Below are positions 3,916-30,854 of a stretch of DNA of 64,000 nucleotides, piece after piece. Below the pieces are notes generated by a model, which was not told the DNA's origin, searched no databases, and saw nothing but the letters and a program-made list of their open reading frames with translations. Where the stretch lies: assembly GCA_947470895.1 (NCBI GenBank), contig CANIVF010000005.1:1-64000 (forward strand), read 5' to 3'. A program made the translations under genes and the position numbers. The first letter of the stretch is position 1, and every line of letters starts with the position of its first letter. The stretch is from Bacteroidota bacterium. GTDB taxonomy: Bacteria > Bacteroidota > Bacteroidia > Cytophagales > Cyclobacteriaceae.

Positions 3916-4281
3916 TTAGCGCCTTGGAAATACTAACTTGACCCTACGGTTTCTTTTGCCACCCACCTCAACAAAGAAGCGTGACTCGCGCAAGTTTCCC
4001 TGGTGATCCCAGAAATAATTAATACCCATTTTGCCATCCTTAATACTTTGGGTAGTCATGCGAGTGAGCCAGTATGAATTCATTTGACTAAATGGCATAC
4101 ATCCAGCAGCGGATAAGATCGGTGACTGATAAGCACTTTGCATTTGATGTGCCGGCAAAAATTTGTTTGACTTGGACTTAGTTGATTTTGTATCTAAGAT
4201 ATACAGATTAACGGGCTTTGTATGAGGGCGAAATTGTGCTACAGCGTAAACACATACTGAGATGAATAGGCCATAATTCAC
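3916..4281 (-). CDS. Small hypothetical protein, possibly secreted
   Basis: A 121-residue reading frame that I do not recognise. The first 17 residues (MNYGLFISVCVYAVAQF) are hydrophobic and could act as a weak signal peptide cleaved near VAQ. The C-terminal 50 residues have a plausible folded composition, with NYFWDHQGNLRESRFFVEV followed by a strongly basic tail (GGKRNRRVKLVFPRR). There is no competing gene on the plus strand between 3895 and 4340, which favours it being real, but no known domain supports it. It would be convergent with the GNAT gene, 21 nt away. Confidence 0.45.
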   Translation of the reverse strand: MNYGLFISVCVYAVAQFRPHTKPVNLYILDTKSTKSKSNKFLPAHQMQSAYQSPILSAAGCMPFSQMNSYWLTRMTTQSIKDGKMGINYFWDHQGNLRESRFFVEVGGKRNRRVKLVFPRR

Positions 4282-13990: not shown

Positions 13991-15778
13991 ATGGCCAAGC
14001 GCAGATCACTGGAGGAGGGAGAAAAACGACCTTTGAATAAATCAGGTATTGAAAAACTGATTGGCATTTTTCGGTTTGTTCTTCCTTACCGATGGACGTT
14101 TATTGTGGGACTTATAGCATTGGGTCTTTCAAGCGGAACGTTGCTTTCATTCCCCTATTTTGCAGGCAAGCTATTGGATGTGGCACAGGGCAAAACCGAT
14201 TTTGTCTTAACAACCATTAATCAGATCGGACTAGCACTCATTGCAATTCTATTAGTGCAAGGTATTTTTTCTTTTTTGCGGGTGTACACGTTCACCACTG
14301 TAAGTGAACGCACCCTGGCCGACTTGCGACAACACGTTTATTCTAAAATCATCTGGCTTCCTATTTCATTTTTTGATCAACGCAGAGTGGGTGAGCTAAT
14401 CAGTCGCATCACATCTGATGTAAGCACACTGCAGGACACCTTTACATTTACGCTGGCAGAATTATTAAGACAGGTACTGGTTTTGATCATCGGTGTGCCC
14501 ATGATATTTATTCTTTTTCCAAGCCTTACCATTTTTATGTTGCTCACGTTTCCGGTCTTGATCCTGGCGGCATTGTTTTTTGGAAAGTTCATCCGCAAAC
14601 TTTCCAAGAAGACACAAGATCAACTGGCAACTTCGAATGTGATTGTTGAAGAAACATTACATTCTATTGCGGTAGTGAAATCATTTACCAATGAGCTATT
14701 TGAAGTATTGCGTTATAAGAAATCATTGAATGAAGTAGTAAACACAGCAATCCATGCATCGAAGTTCAGAGGCATCTTTATTTCATTTACCATAGTAGCA
14801 TTATTTGGGGGCATCGTGGCCGTGAGTTGGTATGGTGCCTATTTGGTAGAGGCGGGCAAAATATCCGTGGGTGATCTGTTCTCATTTGTATTATACACAA
14901 CATTTATTGGAGGCTCTATTGCTGGCCTTGGAGATATCTATTCTCAGCTGCAGCGATCCGTGGGCGCTTCGGAAAGAATTTTAGAAATTCTGGATCAGCA
15001 GGATGAGCAGGCTCCCGCTTCGAATAAGCTGAAGCTATCTGGTAAGATTGAATTTGATCATGTTCAGTTTTCATATCCAACCCGAAGTGATGTTACGGTA
15101 TTACAAGGCATCTCCTTCTCCATAAAACCAGGTCAAAAAATTGCCCTGGTAGGGCCTAGTGGTTCGGGTAAGTCGACTATCATTAACATGCTGATGAGAT
15201 TTTATTCACCTTCTGGTGGAGAAATCAAAGTGGATGATTTGAGCGCGTTGAATTATAATCTTTCAGACTATCGCAGCAACATTGGCATCGTTCCGCAAGA
15301 GGTAATTTTATTTGGCGGCACCATTCGCGAAAATATTACATACGGAAAGACAAATGCAACCGAAGAAGAAATCATTGAAGCTGCCCGAAAAGCCAATGCA
15401 TGGGAGTTCATTGAGAGTTTTCCTGAGAAATTAGGTACGGTGGTTGGTGATCGTGGAGTAAAGCTATCCGGTGGGCAAAGGCAGCGCGTGGCGATAGCGC
15501 GAGCAATTTTAAAAGATCCAGCCATTTTAGTGTTGGATGAGGCCACCAGTTCATTGGATGCAAAATCGGAGCAATTGGTGCAGGAAGCACTTGAGGAACT
15601 CATGGAAAATCGCACCACGGTAGTCATTGCCCATCGCCTGAGCACCATCCGCAAAGTGGACACTATTTTTGTAATTAAAGATGGCTCTATTGCCGAATCA
15701 GGCACTCATGCCCAGCTTGCTTCTTTGGATAACGGTATTTATAGTACTTTGCTTAAGTTACAACTAGAGCTACATTGA
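13991..15778 (+). CDS. ABC transporter, fused permease and ATPase (MsbA-like exporter)
   Basis: A 595-residue half-transporter that would work as a homodimer. Residues about 30-320 form the six-helix exporter domain. The ATPase follows, with Walker A GPSGSGKST, the Q-loop in IGIVPQEVILFGG, signature LSGGQRQR, Walker B ILVLDEATSSLD and the H-loop VIAHRLST. All catalytic motifs are intact. Homologues export lipids, peptides or drugs, and the substrate is not predictable from sequence. The stop is just 2 nt before the ATG of the Fur-type regulator, so regulator and transporter are probably co-transcribed. Confidence 0.92.
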   Translation: MAKRRSLEEGEKRPLNKSGIEKLIGIFRFVLPYRWTFIVGLIALGLSSGTLLSFPYFAGKLLDVAQGKTDFVLTTINQIGLALIAILLVQGIFSFLRVYTFTTVSERTLADLRQHVYSKIIWLPISFFDQRRVGELISRITSDVSTLQDTFTFTLAELLRQVLVLIIGVPMIFILFPSLTIFMLLTFPVLILAALFFGKFIRKLSKKTQDQLATSNVIVEETLHSIAVVKSFTNELFEVLRYKKSLNEVVNTAIHASKFRGIFISFTIVALFGGIVAVSWYGAYLVEAGKISVGDLFSFVLYTTFIGGSIAGLGDIYSQLQRSVGASERILEILDQQDEQAPASNKLKLSGKIEFDHVQFSYPTRSDVTVLQGISFSIKPGQKIALVGPSGSGKSTIINMLMRFYSPSGGEIKVDDLSALNYNLSDYRSNIGIVPQEVILFGGTIRENITYGKTNATEEEIIEAARKANAWEFIESFPEKLGTVVGDRGVKLSGGQRQRVAIARAILKDPAILVLDEATSSLDAKSEQLVQEALEELMENRTTVVIAHRLSTIRKVDTIFVIKDGSIAESGTHAQLASLDNGIYSTLLKLQLELH

Positions 15779-15780
15779 TC

Positions 15781-16197
15781 ATGCAGAAACTAGAAGGACA
15801 GATTCTGAAAGATTACGAACTTAGAACCACCACAAGCCGGTCGGCCATATTAAGGCTTTTCATAAAAAACGCATTTGCACTTTCTTATTCCGATATTGAG
15901 CGTGAAATAGCGGCCACTTTTGATCGCGTCACTGTATACCGGACGCTCAAAACCTTTTTGGATAAAGGGGTTATTCATAAAGTGCTTGATGATGAAGGTA
16001 GCTTGAAATATGCTTTGTGTAGCGAGCCATGCTCCACCCATGAGCATCACCATGAGCATGTCCATTTTAAATGCTCCACATGCGGACACACCAATTGCCT
16101 GGAAGATGTAACGATTCCCATGGTTAGATTGCCTAAAGGTTATGTGGTGGCAGAAGTAAACCTCTTGATCCAGGGAACGTGCAATAATTGTCAATAA
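15781..16197 (+). CDS. Fur-family metalloregulator, possibly Zur-type
   Basis: A 138-residue repressor of the Fur superfamily. The winged-helix domain covers residues about 15-80 (SYSDIEREIAATFDRVTVYR). A His-rich metal site follows in CSTHEHHHEHVHFKC, with two CxxC pairs (CSTC and CNNC) that form the structural zinc site. The metal sensed is not provable here; zinc is plausible because of the zinc-uptake-like locus at 26.9-30.1 kb. I chose the ATG at 15781; a TTG two codons upstream overlaps the ABC transporter stop. It is the only Fur-family gene in the window. Confidence 0.85.
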   Translation: MQKLEGQILKDYELRTTTSRSAILRLFIKNAFALSYSDIEREIAATFDRVTVYRTLKTFLDKGVIHKVLDDEGSLKYALCSEPCSTHEHHHEHVHFKCSTCGHTNCLEDVTIPMVRLPKGYVVAEVNLLIQGTCNNCQ

Positions 16198-16339
16198 ATG
16201 GCCCTCATTATTGCGTAGTATTATTATTACAGGAACGATAAAGAAATTAATTGTAGATTTACCTATAGTTGAAAGGTGATTAAGTGACTTTTATGTCAAT
16301 AATTACCTATTTTTTTGATTAAAACCTGAGAAAGACATA

Positions 16340-17380
16340 ATGCTTTTATTTACGCTGTTCAATTTCGAGATTAATGATCAAACCTTTCTCTATAGTGTAT
16401 TTGCAACTATAATTTCCGTTTTTCTTATACTCGATCTCGGGATTTTTAATAAATCAGCTCATAAAATTTCAACCCAATCAGCGCTTTACCAGTCGATTTT
16501 CTGGGTTATCGTCAGCACAGCTTTTGGTTTTTTGGTTTATAAAATGGGTCCTTTTGAAATTGAAGAGGACGGAAAGTTTTTAAGTGTTTCAGGTTTAGAT
16601 GCGTCTGTTGAATATTTCTCTGCATATCTTACTGAGTATGCCCTATCCGTAGATAACATATTTGTTATTCTCCTTATTCTCAAGTTCTTTAAAGTCAAAG
16701 AGCAATATTTTCACAAAGTATTATTTTGGGGCATCTTAGGAGCTGTTCTCTTCAGAGGCGTTTTCATTTTCGTGGGTGCTATTTTAATCCATCACTTTCA
16801 CTGGATCTTGTATGTGTTCGGAGTGTTCCTGATTTACTCTGGTATTAAAATCTACTTTGATGACGGTGACGAAAAGATAGATCCTGAAAAGAACCCCATA
16901 CTAAAGTTTTGTCATAAGTATCTGCCGATCACTAAAGATGACATGGGCGGACATTTTTTAGCCAAAGTGAATGGAAAACTAATGTTCACCCCTTTATTTC
17001 TGGTGATCGTTCTGATTGAAACAACAGACCTTATTTTTGCTGTTGATTCTATTCCGGCAGCCTTTGCAATCACGACCAATGAATTTATTATTTATACCTC
17101 TAACATTTTCGCGGTGATGGGCCTCCGGGCCATGTTCTTCCTGCTTTCGGGTATCATTGATAAATTTTATCTACTACAGAAGGGCCTTTCGGTCATCCTA
17201 TTCTTCATTGGTGCAAAGATGTTGCTCGAAATAGGAAAAGGTTCAGATGTGCTTCCCAAAGTTTTAACGGATATGCCACCCACCTTGTCCTTCATCATTA
17301 TCATTCTTACGTTATCGTTGTCTATTGTCTTTTCCATTCTTATTCCACAGAAGAGCAAAGAATCAGAAGAACTTTCTTAG
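16340..17380 (+). CDS. TerC-family integral membrane protein
   Basis: A 346-residue protein with about nine membrane segments. The family motif EYALSVDNIFVILLIL is at about residue 95, and LVIVLIETTDLIFAVDSIPAAFAIT carries the second conserved acidic set. These Asp and Glu residues within membrane helices are thought to bind metal. TerC proteins are linked to manganese efflux and metal loading of exported proteins. I looked for a manganese (yybP-ykoY) riboswitch in 16198-16339 and saw none. It converges with the LETM1-like gene with only 3 nt between stop codons. Confidence 0.9.
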   Translation: MLLFTLFNFEINDQTFLYSVFATIISVFLILDLGIFNKSAHKISTQSALYQSIFWVIVSTAFGFLVYKMGPFEIEEDGKFLSVSGLDASVEYFSAYLTEYALSVDNIFVILLILKFFKVKEQYFHKVLFWGILGAVLFRGVFIFVGAILIHHFHWILYVFGVFLIYSGIKIYFDDGDEKIDPEKNPILKFCHKYLPITKDDMGGHFLAKVNGKLMFTPLFLVIVLIETTDLIFAVDSIPAAFAITTNEFIIYTSNIFAVMGLRAMFFLLSGIIDKFYLLQKGLSVILFFIGAKMLLEIGKGSDVLPKVLTDMPPTLSFIIIILTLSLSIVFSILIPQKSKESEELS

Positions 17381-20952: not shown

Positions 20953-23067
20953 CTATGAAAGCGATTGATAGACTAAAAAAGCCGATAGATAGGCAATGGC
21001 AGTCATGTAAGCTAATTGTATCGCAGGCCACTTCCATCCTTTTGTTTCCCGCTTCACAACGGCAAGAGTGCTCATGCATTGCATAGCCAGTGTGTAGAAC
21101 ACCAAAAGAGAAAGACCTACAGCAGGAGTATATCGAGGGCCTCCGGTTTCAGGATTGATTTCTCTTTTCAAACGTGTTTTGATGGTGAGTTGATCTTCTG
21201 AACTTCCCAAACTATAAATAGTAGCGATTGTGCCCACAAATACTTCTCGTGCTGCGAAAGATGTGATTAATGCGATTCCAATTTTCCAATCATATCCCAA
21301 TGGTTTTATTACAGGCTCAATAGTTTTACCTACGATGCCGGCATAAGAATGTTCAAGTTTATAAGCAGCGATGTGATCTTGAATTTCCTGTTGGCTAAAC
21401 CCTTGAGTGGTTGGATCGGATAATACTCTCATTTCAGCATCCTGCATACTTTGTCCGGGTCCGTAGCTGGCGAGCACCCACAGAACAATCGATATGGCCA
21501 GAATTATTTTACCGGCTTCAAATACAAATGCTTTAGTTTTCTCAAGAATGGTGTATCCTACATTTGCCCACTTTGGTTTGCGATAGGTGGGTAATTCCAT
21601 GATGAGATAACTTCTTTCTTTTGATTTAATCAGAAACTGTAAAGCCATAGCTGAGAATATGGCAGCTAGAAAGCCAAGGATGTATAGAGCCATTAATACA
21701 AGACCCTGATAATTAAAAAATCCTAAAATCTTATCATCAGGAATGATTAGGGCCACAAGTATGGTGAACACTGGTAATCGAGCAGAGCAACTCATGAACG
21801 GTGTAACAAAAATGGTAATGAGTCGGTCTTTCCAGTTATCGATGGTGCGTGTGGCCATAATGGCTGGGATGGCACAAGCTAAACCTGAGATAAGAGGCAC
21901 GACACTCTTTCCATTAAGGCCAAATTTCCTCATGATTTTATCCATCAAAAAAACCACGCGTGCCATATACCCGCTTTCCTCCAGAATAGAAATGCAGGCA
22001 AATAGAATAACGATTTGAGGAATGAAAATAATAATGCCCCCAATGCCAGGCACCACGCCTTGCGATATCAGATCAAACAAGGGTCCGTCTGGTAAATTGT
22101 TATCAGCCATGTTGCTGAGGGCTGTAAATGATTGGTCAATAAAATCCATGGGTATTTGTGCCCAGGCAAAGATCGATTGGAAGATCAGGAATAGTACAGA
22201 GAAGAAAATCAAATAACCCCACACTTTATGCGTAAGTACTTTATCGATGCGATATGAAAATTTTTTCCATTCGGGATCGGATGTTTTTAGAATAACTTTA
22301 TTCAACAAGTCCTGAATGAAACCATAGCGCATTACGGTTTCTGCACCTTGGTATTTATGCGGAAAGAATTGATTCTCTTTTGCTTCCTTACGAATAAAAT
22401 TTCGCTCCTCTTCGCTTAAAAAAACGAGATTATCAGTTTGTTGCAGAAACTGATAAGCTTCATAGTCCGTAGCGAGATGAAATTGATCTTTAATTTTAGT
22501 TACTACTTTCTTAATCTCATTATCCAATTGAAAAATTGTTTTGGTGGATGGACTAAGCTTCGTTTTCAACGCCTGCTTTAGCTCATAGGCACCTTGACCG
22601 CTCCGGGCATTGATCATGACCACTGGCACATCCAGTGAGGATGTCAGCATTTGAATGTCTATGCTTTGACCAGACTGTGCCGCGAGGTCCATCATGTTTA
22701 GGGCAAGCACCGTTGGTAATTTCAAATCCATGAGTTGAGTGAGCAGAAGTAAGCAATTTTTGAGATTGGTCGCATCGGCCACCAACACCACGGCATCGGG
22801 GTATTGTCTGTTGTTTTTATCCGCTAACAGTTCGGCCACAACTTTTTCATCCAGCGTTCGAGGATAAAGACTGTAGATTCCGGGCAAATCAATGATCTCG
22901 GCTTGGGTTTTATCATCCAGATTACAAAGACCAATACGCTTATCAACAGTGACACCGGGAAAGTTTCCGATTTTTTGGTTAAGACCGGTGAGTTGATTGA
23001 AGAGCGAAGATTTACCTGAGTTTGGTTTACCCGCTAATGCTACCCTAAGAATCCTCTGTTCAGCCAT
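20953..23067 (-). CDS. feoB: Ferrous iron transport protein B
   Basis: A 704-residue GTPase-permease for Fe(II) uptake across the inner membrane. The N-terminal G domain shows AGKPNSGKSSLFNQLTGL (G1), the switch region GNFPGVTVDK, DLPGIYSLYP (G3) and LNMMD (G4). The membrane part has the two Gate regions, including ARVVFLMDKIMRKFGLNGKS, and conserved CA and SCSARLPVF motifs. Length is normal. Its start shares one base with the stop of feoA, so the two are coupled. FeoC is absent, as is common outside gammaproteobacteria. Confidence 0.96.
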   Translation of the reverse strand: MAEQRILRVALAGKPNSGKSSLFNQLTGLNQKIGNFPGVTVDKRIGLCNLDDKTQAEIIDLPGIYSLYPRTLDEKVVAELLADKNNRQYPDAVVLVADATNLKNCLLLLTQLMDLKLPTVLALNMMDLAAQSGQSIDIQMLTSSLDVPVVMINARSGQGAYELKQALKTKLSPSTKTIFQLDNEIKKVVTKIKDQFHLATDYEAYQFLQQTDNLVFLSEEERNFIRKEAKENQFFPHKYQGAETVMRYGFIQDLLNKVILKTSDPEWKKFSYRIDKVLTHKVWGYLIFFSVLFLIFQSIFAWAQIPMDFIDQSFTALSNMADNNLPDGPLFDLISQGVVPGIGGIIIFIPQIVILFACISILEESGYMARVVFLMDKIMRKFGLNGKSVVPLISGLACAIPAIMATRTIDNWKDRLITIFVTPFMSCSARLPVFTILVALIIPDDKILGFFNYQGLVLMALYILGFLAAIFSAMALQFLIKSKERSYLIMELPTYRKPKWANVGYTILEKTKAFVFEAGKIILAISIVLWVLASYGPGQSMQDAEMRVLSDPTTQGFSQQEIQDHIAAYKLEHSYAGIVGKTIEPVIKPLGYDWKIGIALITSFAAREVFVGTIATIYSLGSSEDQLTIKTRLKREINPETGGPRYTPAVGLSLLVFYTLAMQCMSTLAVVKRETKGWKWPAIQLAYMTAIAYLSAFLVYQSLS

Positions 23068-26524: not shown

Positions 26525-26881
26525 ATGAAACCAAATTTTTCTCATTTTCTAGGTTTTTTCTTCGTGCTAATGACGCTGGCAAGTTTTTCTGTCAGTGCTC
26601 AAGAAGGTATTCCTAATAATGAGATTCCGGATACGAGGTTTAACCATGAACTTCAGGGTGAAAAACCACTTTTATTTGAGCCTGAGCGATCTCCGTCCAA
26701 TTCGGAAAAAGTAACACCTCTTGCGAAAGGTGAAATGCCTTCAATCCCAAAGTCAGGTAAATCAAAATCATCTGAATCAGTTAAAAATTCATCTGTAAAG
26801 CATGAAGATGATGCTTTGTCTTTCAACTTTCTCTACTTTATCATTCAAAAGTTTAAAATATCGGATATTGTAGAGCAATAG
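26525..26881 (+). CDS. Small secreted protein of unknown function
   Basis: A 118-residue protein with a clear signal peptide (residues 1-25, ending FSVSAQE). The mature part is Ser-, Lys- and Pro-rich and probably disordered up to residue 95 (for example PSIPKSGKSKSSESVKNSS). It ends in an ordered, hydrophobic segment, ALSFNFLYFIIQKFKISDIV, which looks like a conserved C-terminal motif. No function is known to me. It lies 65 nt upstream of the TonB-dependent receptor on the same strand, but the receptor has its own operator-promoter, so co-function is only possible, not shown. Confidence 0.65.
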   Translation: MKPNFSHFLGFFFVLMTLASFSVSAQEGIPNNEIPDTRFNHELQGEKPLLFEPERSPSNSEKVTPLAKGEMPSIPKSGKSKSSESVKNSSVKHEDDALSFNFLYFIIQKFKISDIVEQ

Positions 26882-26923: not shown

Positions 26924-26944
26924 TATCTTTGCAACTCAGTTGCA
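26924..26944 (+). promoter_or_regulatory. Candidate metal-repressor operator on the TonB receptor promoter
   Basis: A perfect 15-bp palindrome, TGCAACT-C-AGTTGCA (26930-26944), overlaps the end of TATCTTTG (26924-26931), an exact match to the Bacteroidota -7 element TAnnTTTG. A repressor bound here would block transcription initiation. The same arrangement recurs at 29397-29417 before the lipoprotein gene. The form (7+1+7, A/T flanks around GCAAC) is the size expected of a Fur-superfamily dimer site. That Zur is the binding protein is inference. Confidence 0.65.
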
Positions 26945-26946
26945 TT

Positions 26947-29358
26947 TTGAAAAAATCAGTTATTTTCACTTTCATTCTTTCTTTCCACACATGGTTAGCA
27001 GTGGGACAGGTTACGTGTAAATTATCCGTTACCGGTAAAGTGCTGGATGAATTTAAAAATCCCCTGCCGGGTGCCACCGTATTTATCAAAGAACATAATG
27101 TTGGAAAGGTAACAGACCGGGATGGTATATATGTCTTTTCTGAAGTGTGTGAGGGTGATTATGCACTTGAGATTAAGTTTTTAGGATACCAAACGCAAGT
27201 AGTGAAACTCAATCTGAAAAAATCTGAAACGATACAATCAATACTCATTACTGAAGATAGACTTCTTTCCGAAGTAGTTATTGCTGACCATCTCGATCCA
27301 ATAGGAAAAGCATCTAATTATGGGGCACTTTCAGGAAAGTCTTTAGAGGAAGTAAGGGGAAAATCTTTGGGCGAATCGCTCCTGAGCATTACCGGAGTAA
27401 ACACTATTCAATCAGGGCCGGCCGTTTTCAAACCGGTCATTCATGGAGTGCACAGTCAGCGCATTTTGATTCTTAATAATGGCGTTCGCCAAGAAGGACA
27501 GCAATGGGGAGCTGAACATGCTCCTGAGATTGATCCCTTTATTGCTTCCAACCTGGTGGTCATAAAAGATGCGGGCGCAATCAAATATGGTACAGATGCA
27601 TTGGGTGGTGTGATCATCGTAAAACCGGCTGATCTTCCTAAGGATCAACAGCTAGGTGGACAACTTCATGTGGTTGGGTCCAGTAATGGAAGGTCTGGTG
27701 TAGTTTCTGGCATGCTAGAGGGTGGAATAAAAACACATCATGGTTGGGGATGGCGAGTGCAGGGTACGGCAAAAAAATCAGGAGATCTTCATACGCCAGA
27801 TTATAATCTATCTAATACAGGATTTAACGAATTGAATTACTCAGCCTCAGCGGGCTATCATCAAGAGGGAAAAGGATTTGAGGTTTATTACAGTCATTTC
27901 AACACAACTATAGGAATTTTGAAAGGTTCGGTGGTTGGCAGCACCGAAGATCTTGCCATTGCGTTGGAGCAAGAACCGCCTCAAAACACGCACCAGTTTA
28001 CCTATCAGATAAATTCACCAAGGCAAGATGTAAAGCATGATTTTGTTAAGCTTATAGGCCACCTTCGCAAGGGAGAGAGTCTTTTCAATTTTCAATATGG
28101 TCTTCAGATAAATAATCGAAGGGAGTATGATTTGCGAAGAGGAAGCCTTAATGAGGTTCCTGCTCTTGGATATACATTATATACTCATACTCTGGATGCA
28201 GAGTGGGAAAAAACTAAAGAGAAATCTCATATACGCTCTCTTGGAATAAATGGTATGGCACAAGACAACAATAAAATGGATGGCACTCAAACACTGCCAT
28301 TCATCCCTAATTTCAATAATTATTCAGCCGGATTATTTTGGATAGAGAAATTTTCAAAGACCAACTGGGATTGGGAAATAGGGGCTCGCTATGATCTCAG
28401 GTATTATAAAATTGTTGGGTATGATTTTAAAAATAAATTGTATCGAAGTGAGTTCAGCTTTCATAATGTAAGCGCCACAGCCGCAGGAACTTTAAAAATC
28501 AATTCATCATCAACGTTTACTTCAAGTTTAGGTAGCGCGTGGAGGCCACCAAATGTGGCAGAGCTTTATAGTTTGGGCACCCATCAAAGCGCTGCCGCCA
28601 TTGAGTTTGGATTGTTGTTGGATGAAATCACCAACGAAGTACGATCACCAGATGAAGTAAATTTTCGTGCCGAACAGGCAATAAAATGGGTGAACACTTA
28701 TCGCAGGCAAAAGGAAAGATTGACTATAGAAATTTCGGTTTACATGAATTACATTTTTAATTACATCTACCTGAAGCCTCGTGGAGTGACCGAAAACACG
28801 CGAGGTATTTTCCCATACTTTCGATATACTCAAACCGATGCTTTCTTTCTCGGTGCCGATCTTTCGATGGGTTATGAGATGACAAAAAAATTAAAGCTAA
28901 ATGCACGGATTTCATTGTTGAAAGCAAAAGATGAAACCAATAACGACCATCTGACTTTTATTCCATCAAACCGGTATGAAGTTTCTATGCGATACGATGC
29001 CTCCAACATACAATCATGGACAAGCCCTTTTGTTGAGGTGAGATTAAAGTATGTCGCAAAGCAGAATAGCGCCCCAAGAGTTGTGCCTATCCGTGATATT
29101 ATCCTGGCAAAAGAGCAAGGGATTGATTTGTTTGAAAATGATAGTCGCAATTTTGATTTTGTTGATTCACCTGAGGGTTACTTTCTGGCTTCTTTTAGTG
29201 CCGGCATTTCCAAGCCCATTAAGAAGTCAAAGTTGGATTTTAGAATTTCGGTTGAAAATTTGACGAATAACGCATACCGTGAATATTCAAACAGGATGCG
29301 CTATTATGCCGATGAAATCGGCCGCAATATTTCTATTGCCCTGAAATACAGCTTTTAA
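26947..29358 (+). CDS. TonB-dependent outer-membrane receptor, ZnuD-like
   Basis: An 803-residue receptor for energy-dependent uptake across the outer membrane. A signal peptide (KKSVIFTFILSFHTWLAVGQ) precedes a carboxypeptidase-regulatory-like domain at about residues 25-105 (VLDEFKNPLPGATVFIKEHN). The plug follows, with GVHSQRILILNNGVRQEGQQ and EHAPEIDPFIASNLVVIKDA, close in pattern to zinc-type ZnuD plugs, and then a 22-strand-type barrel ending in aromatic ALKYSF. I prefer the TTG start at 26947 because an earlier in-frame TTG (26914) would put the operator-promoter inside the gene. The substrate, zinc or a zinc complex, is inferred. Confidence 0.85.
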   Translation: MKKSVIFTFILSFHTWLAVGQVTCKLSVTGKVLDEFKNPLPGATVFIKEHNVGKVTDRDGIYVFSEVCEGDYALEIKFLGYQTQVVKLNLKKSETIQSILITEDRLLSEVVIADHLDPIGKASNYGALSGKSLEEVRGKSLGESLLSITGVNTIQSGPAVFKPVIHGVHSQRILILNNGVRQEGQQWGAEHAPEIDPFIASNLVVIKDAGAIKYGTDALGGVIIVKPADLPKDQQLGGQLHVVGSSNGRSGVVSGMLEGGIKTHHGWGWRVQGTAKKSGDLHTPDYNLSNTGFNELNYSASAGYHQEGKGFEVYYSHFNTTIGILKGSVVGSTEDLAIALEQEPPQNTHQFTYQINSPRQDVKHDFVKLIGHLRKGESLFNFQYGLQINNRREYDLRRGSLNEVPALGYTLYTHTLDAEWEKTKEKSHIRSLGINGMAQDNNKMDGTQTLPFIPNFNNYSAGLFWIEKFSKTNWDWEIGARYDLRYYKIVGYDFKNKLYRSEFSFHNVSATAAGTLKINSSSTFTSSLGSAWRPPNVAELYSLGTHQSAAAIEFGLLLDEITNEVRSPDEVNFRAEQAIKWVNTYRRQKERLTIEISVYMNYIFNYIYLKPRGVTENTRGIFPYFRYTQTDAFFLGADLSMGYEMTKKLKLNARISLLKAKDETNNDHLTFIPSNRYEVSMRYDASNIQSWTSPFVEVRLKYVAKQNSAPRVVPIRDIILAKEQGIDLFENDSRNFDFVDSPEGYFLASFSAGISKPIKKSKLDFRISVENLTNNAYREYSNRMRYYADEIGRNISIALKYSF

Positions 29359-29396
29359 ATTGTTGAAAATAGGTAGTGGGAATCAAAGTTTTATTT

Positions 29397-29417
29397 TATT
29401 ATTGCAACATTGTTGCA
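29397..29417 (+). promoter_or_regulatory. Second copy of the candidate metal-repressor operator
   Basis: TGCAACA-T-TGTTGCA (29403-29417) is a perfect 15-bp palindrome that shares the TGCAAC/GTTGCA arms with the site before the receptor gene. It overlaps the end of TATTATTG (29397-29404), a one-mismatch -7 element. It sits between the receptor stop (29358) and the lipoprotein ATG (29438), implying an independent promoter for the lipoprotein under the same regulator. Confidence 0.65.
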
Positions 29418-29437
29418 TAAATATTATAATCATTAAT

Positions 29438-30061
29438 ATGAAAGTCTATTTTAATTTCCTGCTTCTTTTACTCAGTACTACTTCGTTCATCTTATTAACT
29501 AGCTGCAAGAATGACGACCCAGAGCCGGAGAATATCCCAGAGTTAATAACTAAAGTGACTTTAAAATTTACCCCTGCTGGAGGCGGGGCTGAGATGATCA
29601 TTACGGCAACTGATCCGGATGGAGAGGGAGTGCAGGACATTAAAGTGGATGGCCCCATCAACTTAATAAAGGGAACACAGTATACATTATCATTGGACTT
29701 AATCAATGGGTTATATAAACCAGGAGATGCTGGTTATAACATCACCACTGAAGTTGAAGAAGAAGGAGAGGAGCATCAATTTTTCTTCCGTTTTTCTGAC
29801 GGGATATTTTCATCGCCAACTGGCACAGGAAACATTAAAGACAATGCATCTTCTACTGCGGAAAGTATTAATTATTTAGACAATGATGTTAGCAACATAC
29901 CGATAGGCATTAGTACATCTTGGACGTCATCCAATACGGCGTTAATGGATAAATCATTCAGAGTACTTTTAAAGCACCAACCCGGAATAAAATCATCCAC
30001 CTCTACGTCTCTAGATGGAGAGAGTGATCTGGACATCAGCTTTGTGGTCAATGTGAATTAA
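29438..30061 (+). CDS. Lipoprotein partner of the TonB-dependent receptor
   Basis: A 207-residue lipoprotein with a signal peptide and lipobox LLTSC (Cys near residue 22), followed by an acidic linker (KNDDPEPENIPE). The mature domain is beta-rich, with VTLKFTPAGGGAEMIITATD and EEEGEEHQFFFRFSDGIF followed by LLKHQPG. This matches a Bacteroidota family sometimes annotated as a type 1 periplasmic-binding-fold lipoprotein, often found beside a TonB-dependent receptor. It is probably a surface or periplasmic binding component for the same ligand. The conserved EEEGEEHQFFFRF could bind metal. The ATG at 29438 is 20 nt after the operator. Confidence 0.75.
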   Translation: MKVYFNFLLLLLSTTSFILLTSCKNDDPEPENIPELITKVTLKFTPAGGGAEMIITATDPDGEGVQDIKVDGPINLIKGTQYTLSLDLINGLYKPGDAGYNITTEVEEEGEEHQFFFRFSDGIFSSPTGTGNIKDNASSTAESINYLDNDVSNIPIGISTSWTSSNTALMDKSFRVLLKHQPGIKSSTSTSLDGESDLDISFVVNVN

Positions 30062-30082
30062 TCAATCCATGAACTGCTGATA

Positions 30083-30110
30083 AAAAAACCCGGAGCATTC
30101 CGGGTTTTTT
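30083..30110. terminator. Bidirectional intrinsic terminator
   Basis: CCCGGA-GCAT-TCCGGG (30089-30104) flanked by seven A on the left and six T on the right. It can stop transcription from the lipoprotein gene on the plus strand and from the HisA-like gene on the minus strand, which converge here. Confidence 0.9.
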
Positions 30111-30113
30111 TAT

Positions 30114-30854
30114 TCAACTTTTCTTCACGATGAATTGTTCCAGATCTTTAAGCTTAAGAATTCCCTCATAATAAGCTTTGCCAAAGATGACAGCAAAGAT
30201 TCCCATGTCATTGAGTTTTTTTATGTCATCTACTCCACGCACGCCTCCGCTGGCAAGCACTTTTAAATCTTTAAAGTGATCGAGGATTTCCTGATAAAAT
30301 GAAAAGGCCGGACCTTCCAGTACACCATCGCGCGATACATCGGTCGATTTCACATACTTCAATCCTCGGTCATAAAAATATTGAAGATGATCGAACAAGG
30401 TGATTTCAGATTTGGTTAACCAACCGCGAAACGCTATTTTCTTTGAAACAATATCAGTAACATCAGCACCCAAGGTCATTTTTTCTCTGCCATAAGAAAT
30501 AATCCATGAGGCAAATAATTCGGGATTGGTAACTGCAATGCTTGAGGCTGTGATATAATCAGCACCAAATTCATAAGCTTTTCCGATATCGCCATCGGTG
30601 CAAATGCCTCCGGTAAAATCTACTTTAAGATTGGTGTGGCCTGCAATAGCTTCAAGCACATGATAATTCTTAGGACTCCCACGTTCAGCACCATCCAAAT
30701 CCACTAAATGAACAACTTCAATTCCGTGAGATTCAAATCGCTTTGCCAGATCTAATGGATTTTCATTATACGCTTTCTCACTGGCCGGATCGCCCTTCCT
30801 CATTTTAACAACTTTTCCGTTACGAATGGCTATGGAAGGAATTACCTGTATCAT
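30114..30854 (-). CDS. HisA-like phosphosugar isomerase homologue lacking the catalytic Asp
   Basis: A 246-residue TIM barrel with HisA-family phosphate-binding sites: GGI in VDFTGGICTDGD, TDVSRDG, and VLASGGVRG followed by FGKAYYEG. Canonical HisA opens with a strand ending PA-(I/L)-D, where Asp8 is the general base. Here the segment reads VIPSIAIRNGKVV, with Ala9 at that position. The general-acid Asp is kept (GADVTD) and so is the Thr-Asp of TDVSRDG. There are no other histidine genes around it. It is probably a HisA paralogue with a different reaction or a non-catalytic role, though most databases would call it HisA. Confidence 0.8.
   Translation of the reverse strand: MIQVIPSIAIRNGKVVKMRKGDPASEKAYNENPLDLAKRFESHGIEVVHLVDLDGAERGSPKNYHVLEAIAGHTNLKVDFTGGICTDGDIGKAYEFGADYITASSIAVTNPELFASWIISYGREKMTLGADVTDIVSKKIAFRGWLTKSEITLFDHLQYFYDRGLKYVKSTDVSRDGVLEGPAFSFYQEILDHFKDLKVLASGGVRGVDDIKKLNDMGIFAVIFGKAYYEGILKLKDLEQFIVKKS

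Follow-up and report, generated by a model that had tools for sequence, protein, structure and literature searches.

Which regulator reads a 15-bp dyad that occurs twice at a TonB receptor/lipoprotein gene pair, and to which supply that regulator would answer, are the questions raised by a 64,000-nucleotide stretch of DNA from a Bacteroidota bacterium of the Cyclobacteriaceae (GenBank assembly GCA_947470895.1, contig CANIVF010000005.1, positions 1 to 64,000; hereafter ‘the window’). We consider it highly probable, as judged from sequence, that the Fur-superfamily protein encoded at 15781-16197 is Zur, and that a Zur regulon controls a ZnuD-like receptor together with an uncatalogued lipoprotein. 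An earlier note on the window had claimed two exact dyads, each overlapping a -7-like element and each lying before one gene of the pair, along with a Fur-superfamily regulator at 15781-16197, and had proposed a zinc-type regulon in which Zur binds the motif. Our scan re-found the dyads, the promoter elements and the regulator gene where they had been placed, and the zinc-type regulon is supported by the comparisons set out below, in which the motif appears to track this regulator rather than the genome's other Fur-family protein. The features in question are as follows:

26924-26931, forward strand: -7 promoter box TATCTTTG, by sequence a perfect Bacteroidota -7 box
26930-26944, no strand assigned: operator 1, TGCAACTCAGTTGCA, an exact match to the motif, matrix score 25.2
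26947-29358, forward strand: TonB-dependent receptor with CarboxypepD_reg-like, plug and barrel domains (from Pfam, the starts of relatives with respect to the operator, and ZnuD as best PDB match)
29397-29404, forward strand: -7-like box TATTATTG, by sequence a one-off version of the -7 box
29403-29417, no strand assigned: operator 2, TGCAACATTGTTGCA, an exact match to the motif, matrix score 28.7
29438-30061, forward strand: lipoprotein of 207 amino acids with a likely lipobox Cys23, predicted to be mostly beta (conserved family; AlphaFold2 model)
15781-16197, forward strand: Fur-superfamily regulator, proposed Zur (Pfam FUR; best PDB match FurB; conserved Cys/His residues)

Across the whole genome (4,922,601 bases in 167 contigs), operators 1 and 2 are the sole exact copies of the motif, with none found for the reversed pattern used as a control; the motif is, in other words, not scattered. 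Allowing two mismatches, the window holds five matches against 3.4 expected, and it is this ordinary count that speaks for the dyads being a chance or non-regulatory repeat; what makes the observation strong is therefore that the copies are perfect and placed as they are. A weight matrix was drawn up from 138 sites at other loci, which are not fully independent, as some genomes are in both locus sets; the next best place in the window after the two operators scores 9.0, and in four simulated genomes, matched in length and dinucleotide composition, no place reached 24. Uniqueness in the genome, placement, conservation of position in relatives and the simulated genomes together rule out a chance origin, and we regard a repeat of that kind as scarcely credible.

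By chance, a genome is expected to hold 3 to 8 matrix scores of 16 or more, and for this reason the six one-mismatch sites found elsewhere in the genome, four of which lie inside open reading frames (ORFs), remain leads. That on contig C78 sits inside the longest reading of a PMT-family ORF, yet before its likelier ATG, whilst that on contig C36 precedes a Cation_efflux gene and has a second, weaker dyad 80 bp away. The two C36 sites (4105-4119 and 4185-4199 of locus L069) form an imperfect operator pair between the Cation_efflux gene and an Hsp20 gene; from their sequence, they are a possible third Zur target in this genome, each taken singly being close to chance level.

The operators are placed tightly with respect to both genes. 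The Bacteroidota -7 consensus is TAnnTTTG, and the 7-1-7 form, seen in the 15-base dyad, is general to Fur-family operators; operator 1 overlaps the perfect box and operator 2 the one-off box. Read at its longest, the receptor ORF starts at TTG 26914, upstream of operator 1, which would place the operator inside the gene; TTG 26947, which begins 2 bp past the operator, is the likely start, favoured because many relatives have a start codon right after theirs. The ATG of the lipoprotein gene lies 20 bp downstream of operator 2, and the receptor stop is separated from the lipoprotein start by 79 bp, such that each gene appears to have a promoter and operator of its own.

This arrangement recurs in relatives. 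Across 142 contexts (identical sequences collapsed, one-mismatch sites counted in), TAnnTTTG begins exactly 6 bp before the operator at 27 of 50 receptor sites and, read the other way, at 1 of 50; at lipoprotein sites it does so in 17 of 64, and a relaxed box, TAnnnTTG, does so in 34 of 64 against 3 of 64. The overlap with the -7 box is thus direction-specific at both types of gene, whilst at regulator genes the offset is not favoured (1/28, against 4/28 in the opposite direction). Because the operator overlaps the -7 box, the sequences suggest simple repression. Pairs of operators 37-38 bp apart are also frequent among the loci (6303/6341 in L083, 6007/6045 in L092, 8674/8711 in L089 and 6920/6958 in L202), as if two dimers were acting jointly, or as if each operator served one promoter.

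The genes that follow the motif in relatives bear upon what it controls. In a set of 58 genomes, our own counted in, 26 carry exact sites, amounting to 61 sites against seven matches to the reversed control. At 36 of the 61, the gene standing first encodes either the lipoprotein or a TonB receptor from the same sequence cluster, a cluster that may take in non-orthologues; a further 15 have a COG0523 GTPase, an ATP-binding cassette (ABC) ATPase or permease, MerC, DUF1826, a Fur-family protein, ZIP or one of two small proteins among the first four genes. Six precede other genes, and four have no gene called within 300 bp. Pfam searches on ten representatives confirmed eight (cobW with CobW_C, Zip, MerC in two, FUR, ABC_tran, ABC2/DUF3526 and DUF1826); the two small co-travelling proteins had no Pfam match. 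The motif is therefore found upstream of matching loci in relatives, both TonB receptors and the zinc-type genes ZIP, CobW with CobW_C, and MerC. ZIP and TonB receptors are the usual company of Zur. COG0523 genes have been described downstream of putative Zur sites in many bacteria (PMC2770081).

At three loci, L044, L075 and L090, sites precede genes for an ABC ATPase and two ABC-2 permeases (DUF3526 by Pfam in the one searched), accompanied in L044 and L075 by a gene for a DUF1826-type protein; sites there also precede genes for two small proteins, the first with an EDGW-like start, and for COG0523. The ABC/ABC-2 permease, DUF1826, small-protein and COG0523 genes are likely to be further members of the zinc-starvation set.

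A scan led by the lipoprotein profile, covering the best 80 of 513 related loci (1.02 Mb; by title 78 from Bacteroidota, one from Verrucomicrobia and one from a ‘bacterium’), returned 68 exact and 70 one-mismatch sites, against 0 and 1 for the reversed pattern. Of these 138 sites, 101 fall within the 48.7 kb of windows just upstream of a receptor, lipoprotein or regulator, and 54 of the 80 loci have a site there. A match to the regulator is found in 27 of the 80 loci, in 16 of which it lies directly before the receptor on the same strand; a site precedes the regulator in 11 of those 16. In another locus, L168, which is not one of the 80, the order is site, regulator, receptor, lipoprotein. In other genomes, then, the motif stands before that regulator's own gene.

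As to the regulator itself, when searched as 137 amino acids from its first Met it scores 43.3 bits against Pfam FUR (PF01475), above the cut-off of 23.1. Among PDB entries, FurB, which carries the annotation of a zinc regulator, matches it best (E 1.6e-6), ahead of 3mwm (E 7.8e-6), which we take to be the Streptomyces Zur. In an alignment of 30 rows of relatives, D69, H92, H94, C97, C100, C105, C133 and C136 are invariant, and C79 is conserved at 90% or more. The structural CxxC...CxxC zinc site (C97, C100, C133 and C136) is present in 30/30 rows, and the regulatory site of Zur, which is made up of a Cys, two His and an Asp, has its counterparts in C79, H92, H94 and D69; the first three align to Cys and His positions in FurB that are presumably its regulatory-zinc ligands. 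The Zur model is the best of the ten listed for this protein, although its score against that model, the E. coli-type equivalog NF008646, is 36.0 bits against a cut-off of 167, and it does not count as an equivalog of E. coli Zur. In the window, the gene is flanked by genes for an ABC exporter and for a TerC-family protein (TerC by Pfam; 13991-17380 overall), an arrangement that recurs in L171 and L173.

The genome encodes two Fur-family proteins, the window regulator and a protein on contig C21, in which, by eye, the position of C79 holds no Cys. That the C21 protein might read the motif instead has two points in its favour: no Fur protein besides these two was found in the genome, and 25 of the 26 motif-bearing genomes have the C21 protein. 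Its distribution is far wider than that of the motif, however, extending to 50 of the 58 genomes (and to 19 of the 26 in which window regulator and motif are both absent), and it was not found in G018, a genome with three sites. The window regulator, by contrast (counted by similarity, at E 0.001 or better), has matches in 32 of the 58 genomes, 26 of which carry exact sites, whilst none of the 26 genomes without it has the motif; among the 39 genomes with the lipoprotein, sites are present in 25 of 29 with the regulator and in 0 of 10 without. Co-occurrence leads us to reject the C21 protein as the reader, and we hold that assignment to be very improbable.

A survey of 198 genomes drawn across the Bacteroidota gave 67 exact sites in 45 genomes, against 18 reversed-control matches in 17. 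Taking a match to the regulator profile at E 4e-22, a freely chosen cut-off, as strong, there are 71 such matches in 56 genomes, and an exact site lies no more than 300 bp upstream of 13 of the 71, where 0.002 would be expected; these 13 matches belong to 12 genomes, nine genera and six families. Sites occur in 27 of the 56 genomes with a strong match and in 18 of the 142 without. The surroundings were viewed at 28 loci of first-listed sites: those of G182 and G206 precede genes that read as MerC, those of G106 and G242 a receptor, and that of G121 a lipoprotein. Nine of these first-listed sites come from genomes without a strong match, seven of them inside ORFs (G202, G110, G221, G076, G130, G180 and G169) and two not (G094 and G138), and exact sites in such genomes look like background.

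The receptor carries ZnuD as its best PDB match (4rdr, over the plug, 30 bits, E 1.2e-6), so that the likeness to ZnuD put forward earlier is real; it is also weak, the score against the ZnuD model NF038289 being 62 bits for a cut-off of 950. Just upstream of the receptor promoter (26525-26881) is a gene for a small, secreted-looking protein of 118 amino acids with no Pfam match, and a like-sized gene stands at the same place in L043, L045, L084, L089, L093 and L094. Relatives without the regulator (L156, L157, L159, L160, L161 and L163) keep the receptor/lipoprotein pair without the operator, with a gene for a small protein of 105-142 amino acids just before the receptor; a gene of like size is also found before the receptor in the regulator-bearing L165 and L166.

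A number of these findings, and others, weigh against a Zur regulon. In our own genome, the regulator gene itself lacks a site, and none was found at the ZIP and CobW-family places examined (two of six CobW matches scanned). Six regulator-bearing relatives of the 58-genome set have no exact site; in the retrieved loci of G019, G026, G028 and G043 there are one-mismatch sites, some of them away from promoters, whilst the retrieved loci of G017 and G041 hold none. Likewise, 29 of the 56 genomes with a strong regulator match have no exact site, 26 of the 80 lipoprotein loci have no site in their upstream windows, and a member of the same genus, G202, carries an exact site inside an ORF and has no regulator match. 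On a tree of the lipoprotein from 34 genomes, used for a test of independence, regulator and motif each change at least five times, with one supported independent pair; this is too few for significance, hence Fisher values are not used as probabilities, and adjacency is better evidence than the co-occurrence counts.

Other points of this kind would suit a regulator of Fur, PerR or Mur type that answers to iron, peroxide or manganese, with the pair importing iron or heme. Fur and PerR structures come next after those of the zinc regulators, at E 2.7e-5 and 3.2e-5, close enough that likeness over the whole sequence is on its own a weak guide; the PerR and Fur models, at 34.0 and 33.8 bits, lie near the Zur model, all three being far below cut-off. 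The best NCBIfam match of the receptor is a TonB-hemin model (123 bits, below its cut-off of 317), which exceeds its score for ZnuD, and the window also contains a FeoB gene (20953-23067, by Pfam). None of the eight highest-scoring matrix places in the window precedes FeoB, however, and the sites of relatives precede ZIP, CobW/CobW_C and MerC genes; moreover, the regulator has Cys79, where the genome's other Fur protein has no Cys. We therefore judge an iron, peroxide or manganese regulator unlikely, and retain Zur. As heme-receptor models outscore ZnuD, with all below cut-off, the substrate of the receptor is not fixed by sequence alone, and the regulon suggests zinc.

The lipoprotein is the less familiar member of the pair. 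For the window protein, Pfam gives no match and NCBIfam a single one, far below cut-off. Its AlphaFold2 model (predicted local distance difference test score, pLDDT, 92.6) is mostly beta and has no fold match in the PDB at E 0.001 or better; HmuY is absent among the matches listed (50 of 1606), none of which reaches that level, and the profile finds no relative in the PDB by sequence (best E 0.061). Weak fimbrillin-type matches do occur among family members (Pfam in 5 of 61, NCBIfam in 12 of 61, at E 0.1 or better, the best at 3e-5), the commonest being to Mfa1-type fimbrial subunits, where they cover the first 60 residues; of ten members run singly against NF038041, two match, over the same first 60 residues and at 15-16 bits against a cut-off of 130. 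We do not read these matches as placing the family among the fimbrillins. D59, E109, E112, H113, D150, H180 and D197 are invariant in all 61 members, and these His and acidic residues would suit a metal site. A receptor match is found in 77 of the 80 loci examined for this family; the lipoprotein may partner the receptor at the surface, in capture or in gating, its role in binding being a guess on our part. On the 3' side of its gene, a terminator-like hairpin, with a 16-pair stem and T run, occupies 30079-30114 on the forward strand.

Several known systems offer comparison. Studies in Caulobacter and Neisseria have reportedly found ZnuD-type TonB receptors controlled by Zur, matching the arrangement that we propose for a receptor whose best PDB match is ZnuD; the receptor here differs in its N-terminal CarboxypepD_reg-like domain, in the adjoining lipoprotein gene and in falling far below the ZnuD cut-off, and the Zur operator of ZnuD-type systems differs in sequence from ours. 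Zur/FurB (PDB 2o03 and 3mwm, which we take to be actinobacterial proteins) provide the best PDB matches to the regulator, and the Cys and the His-x-His ahead of the CxxC align; the second His pair of FurB, presumably regulatory, is not conserved in the regulator alignment, and the actinobacterial operator is again different. SusC/SusD and HmuR/HmuY are TonB receptors with a lipoprotein encoded beside them; set against SusC/SusD, the receptor here scores 64.6 bits for a SusC cut-off of 368, and no SusD family is among the 16 families listed for the 61 lipoprotein members.

The closest likeness for the operator comes from another phylum. According to a 2004 study (PMC545781), ATGCAACNNNGTTGCAT was predicted as a Zur box before znuABC-zur_D in two Desulfovibrio species, with the same 12 fixed bases and 3-base spacer as the operator here, and Desulfovibrio likewise encodes a Fur-superfamily regulator with its zinc transporter. 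There, the target is an ABC importer, as opposed to an outer-membrane receptor and lipoprotein; that box is a prediction, and the likeness described here is one of operator sequence. The site is thus not as little described as the earlier note had it, its sequence being already known from a distant lineage; for the Bacteroidota, the literature searched yielded no counterpart. PgFur of Porphyromonas gingivalis, as described in PMC6613475, is a Bacteroidota Fur-family protein with two CxxC motifs and a link to the lipoprotein gene hmuY; it lacks the regulatory histidines, which the regulator here keeps, and is placed in a subfamily of its own. The accessible text of a 2018 Zur review (PMC6103462) contains neither ‘Bacteroid’ nor ‘Flavobacter’, and that of a 2025 study of zinc in Riemerella (PMC11960050) treats ZntR and a ZIP importer and describes no Zur box. 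In a search by title and the start of the abstract, with most subscription papers and RegPrecise outside its reach, no Zur box or regulon of the Bacteroidota was recognised; the Bacteroidota regulon and its lipoprotein partner seem to be the new parts.

Synthesising these results, we propose the following model, in which we infer zinc as the ligand, repression as the sign of control, and both the transcription start and the substrate. Under zinc sufficiency, a zinc-loaded Zur dimer would bind TGCAACNNNGTTGCA, masking the end of the -7 box together with the presumed transcription start, and would thereby block RNA polymerase at two separate promoters. When zinc is short, the receptor and lipoprotein would be made, and would bring zinc, or a carrier of zinc, through the outer membrane.

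More tentatively, and as a proposal that we place somewhat short of an even chance, much of the Bacteroidota may run its zinc-starvation response via this Zur and operator, with the receptor and a dedicated surface lipoprotein as the two parts of a zinc ‘gate’ in the outer membrane; the invariant His113, His180 and acidic residues of this unnamed lipoprotein family might then capture zinc or its carrier and hand it to the receptor, much as SusD serves SusC with sugars. A defined operator, along with its putative regulator, would provide a means to read zinc-starvation genes in the Bacteroidota, and an uncatalogued lipoprotein family is now tied to a testable role; the same operator sequence, moreover, is present in two distant phyla.

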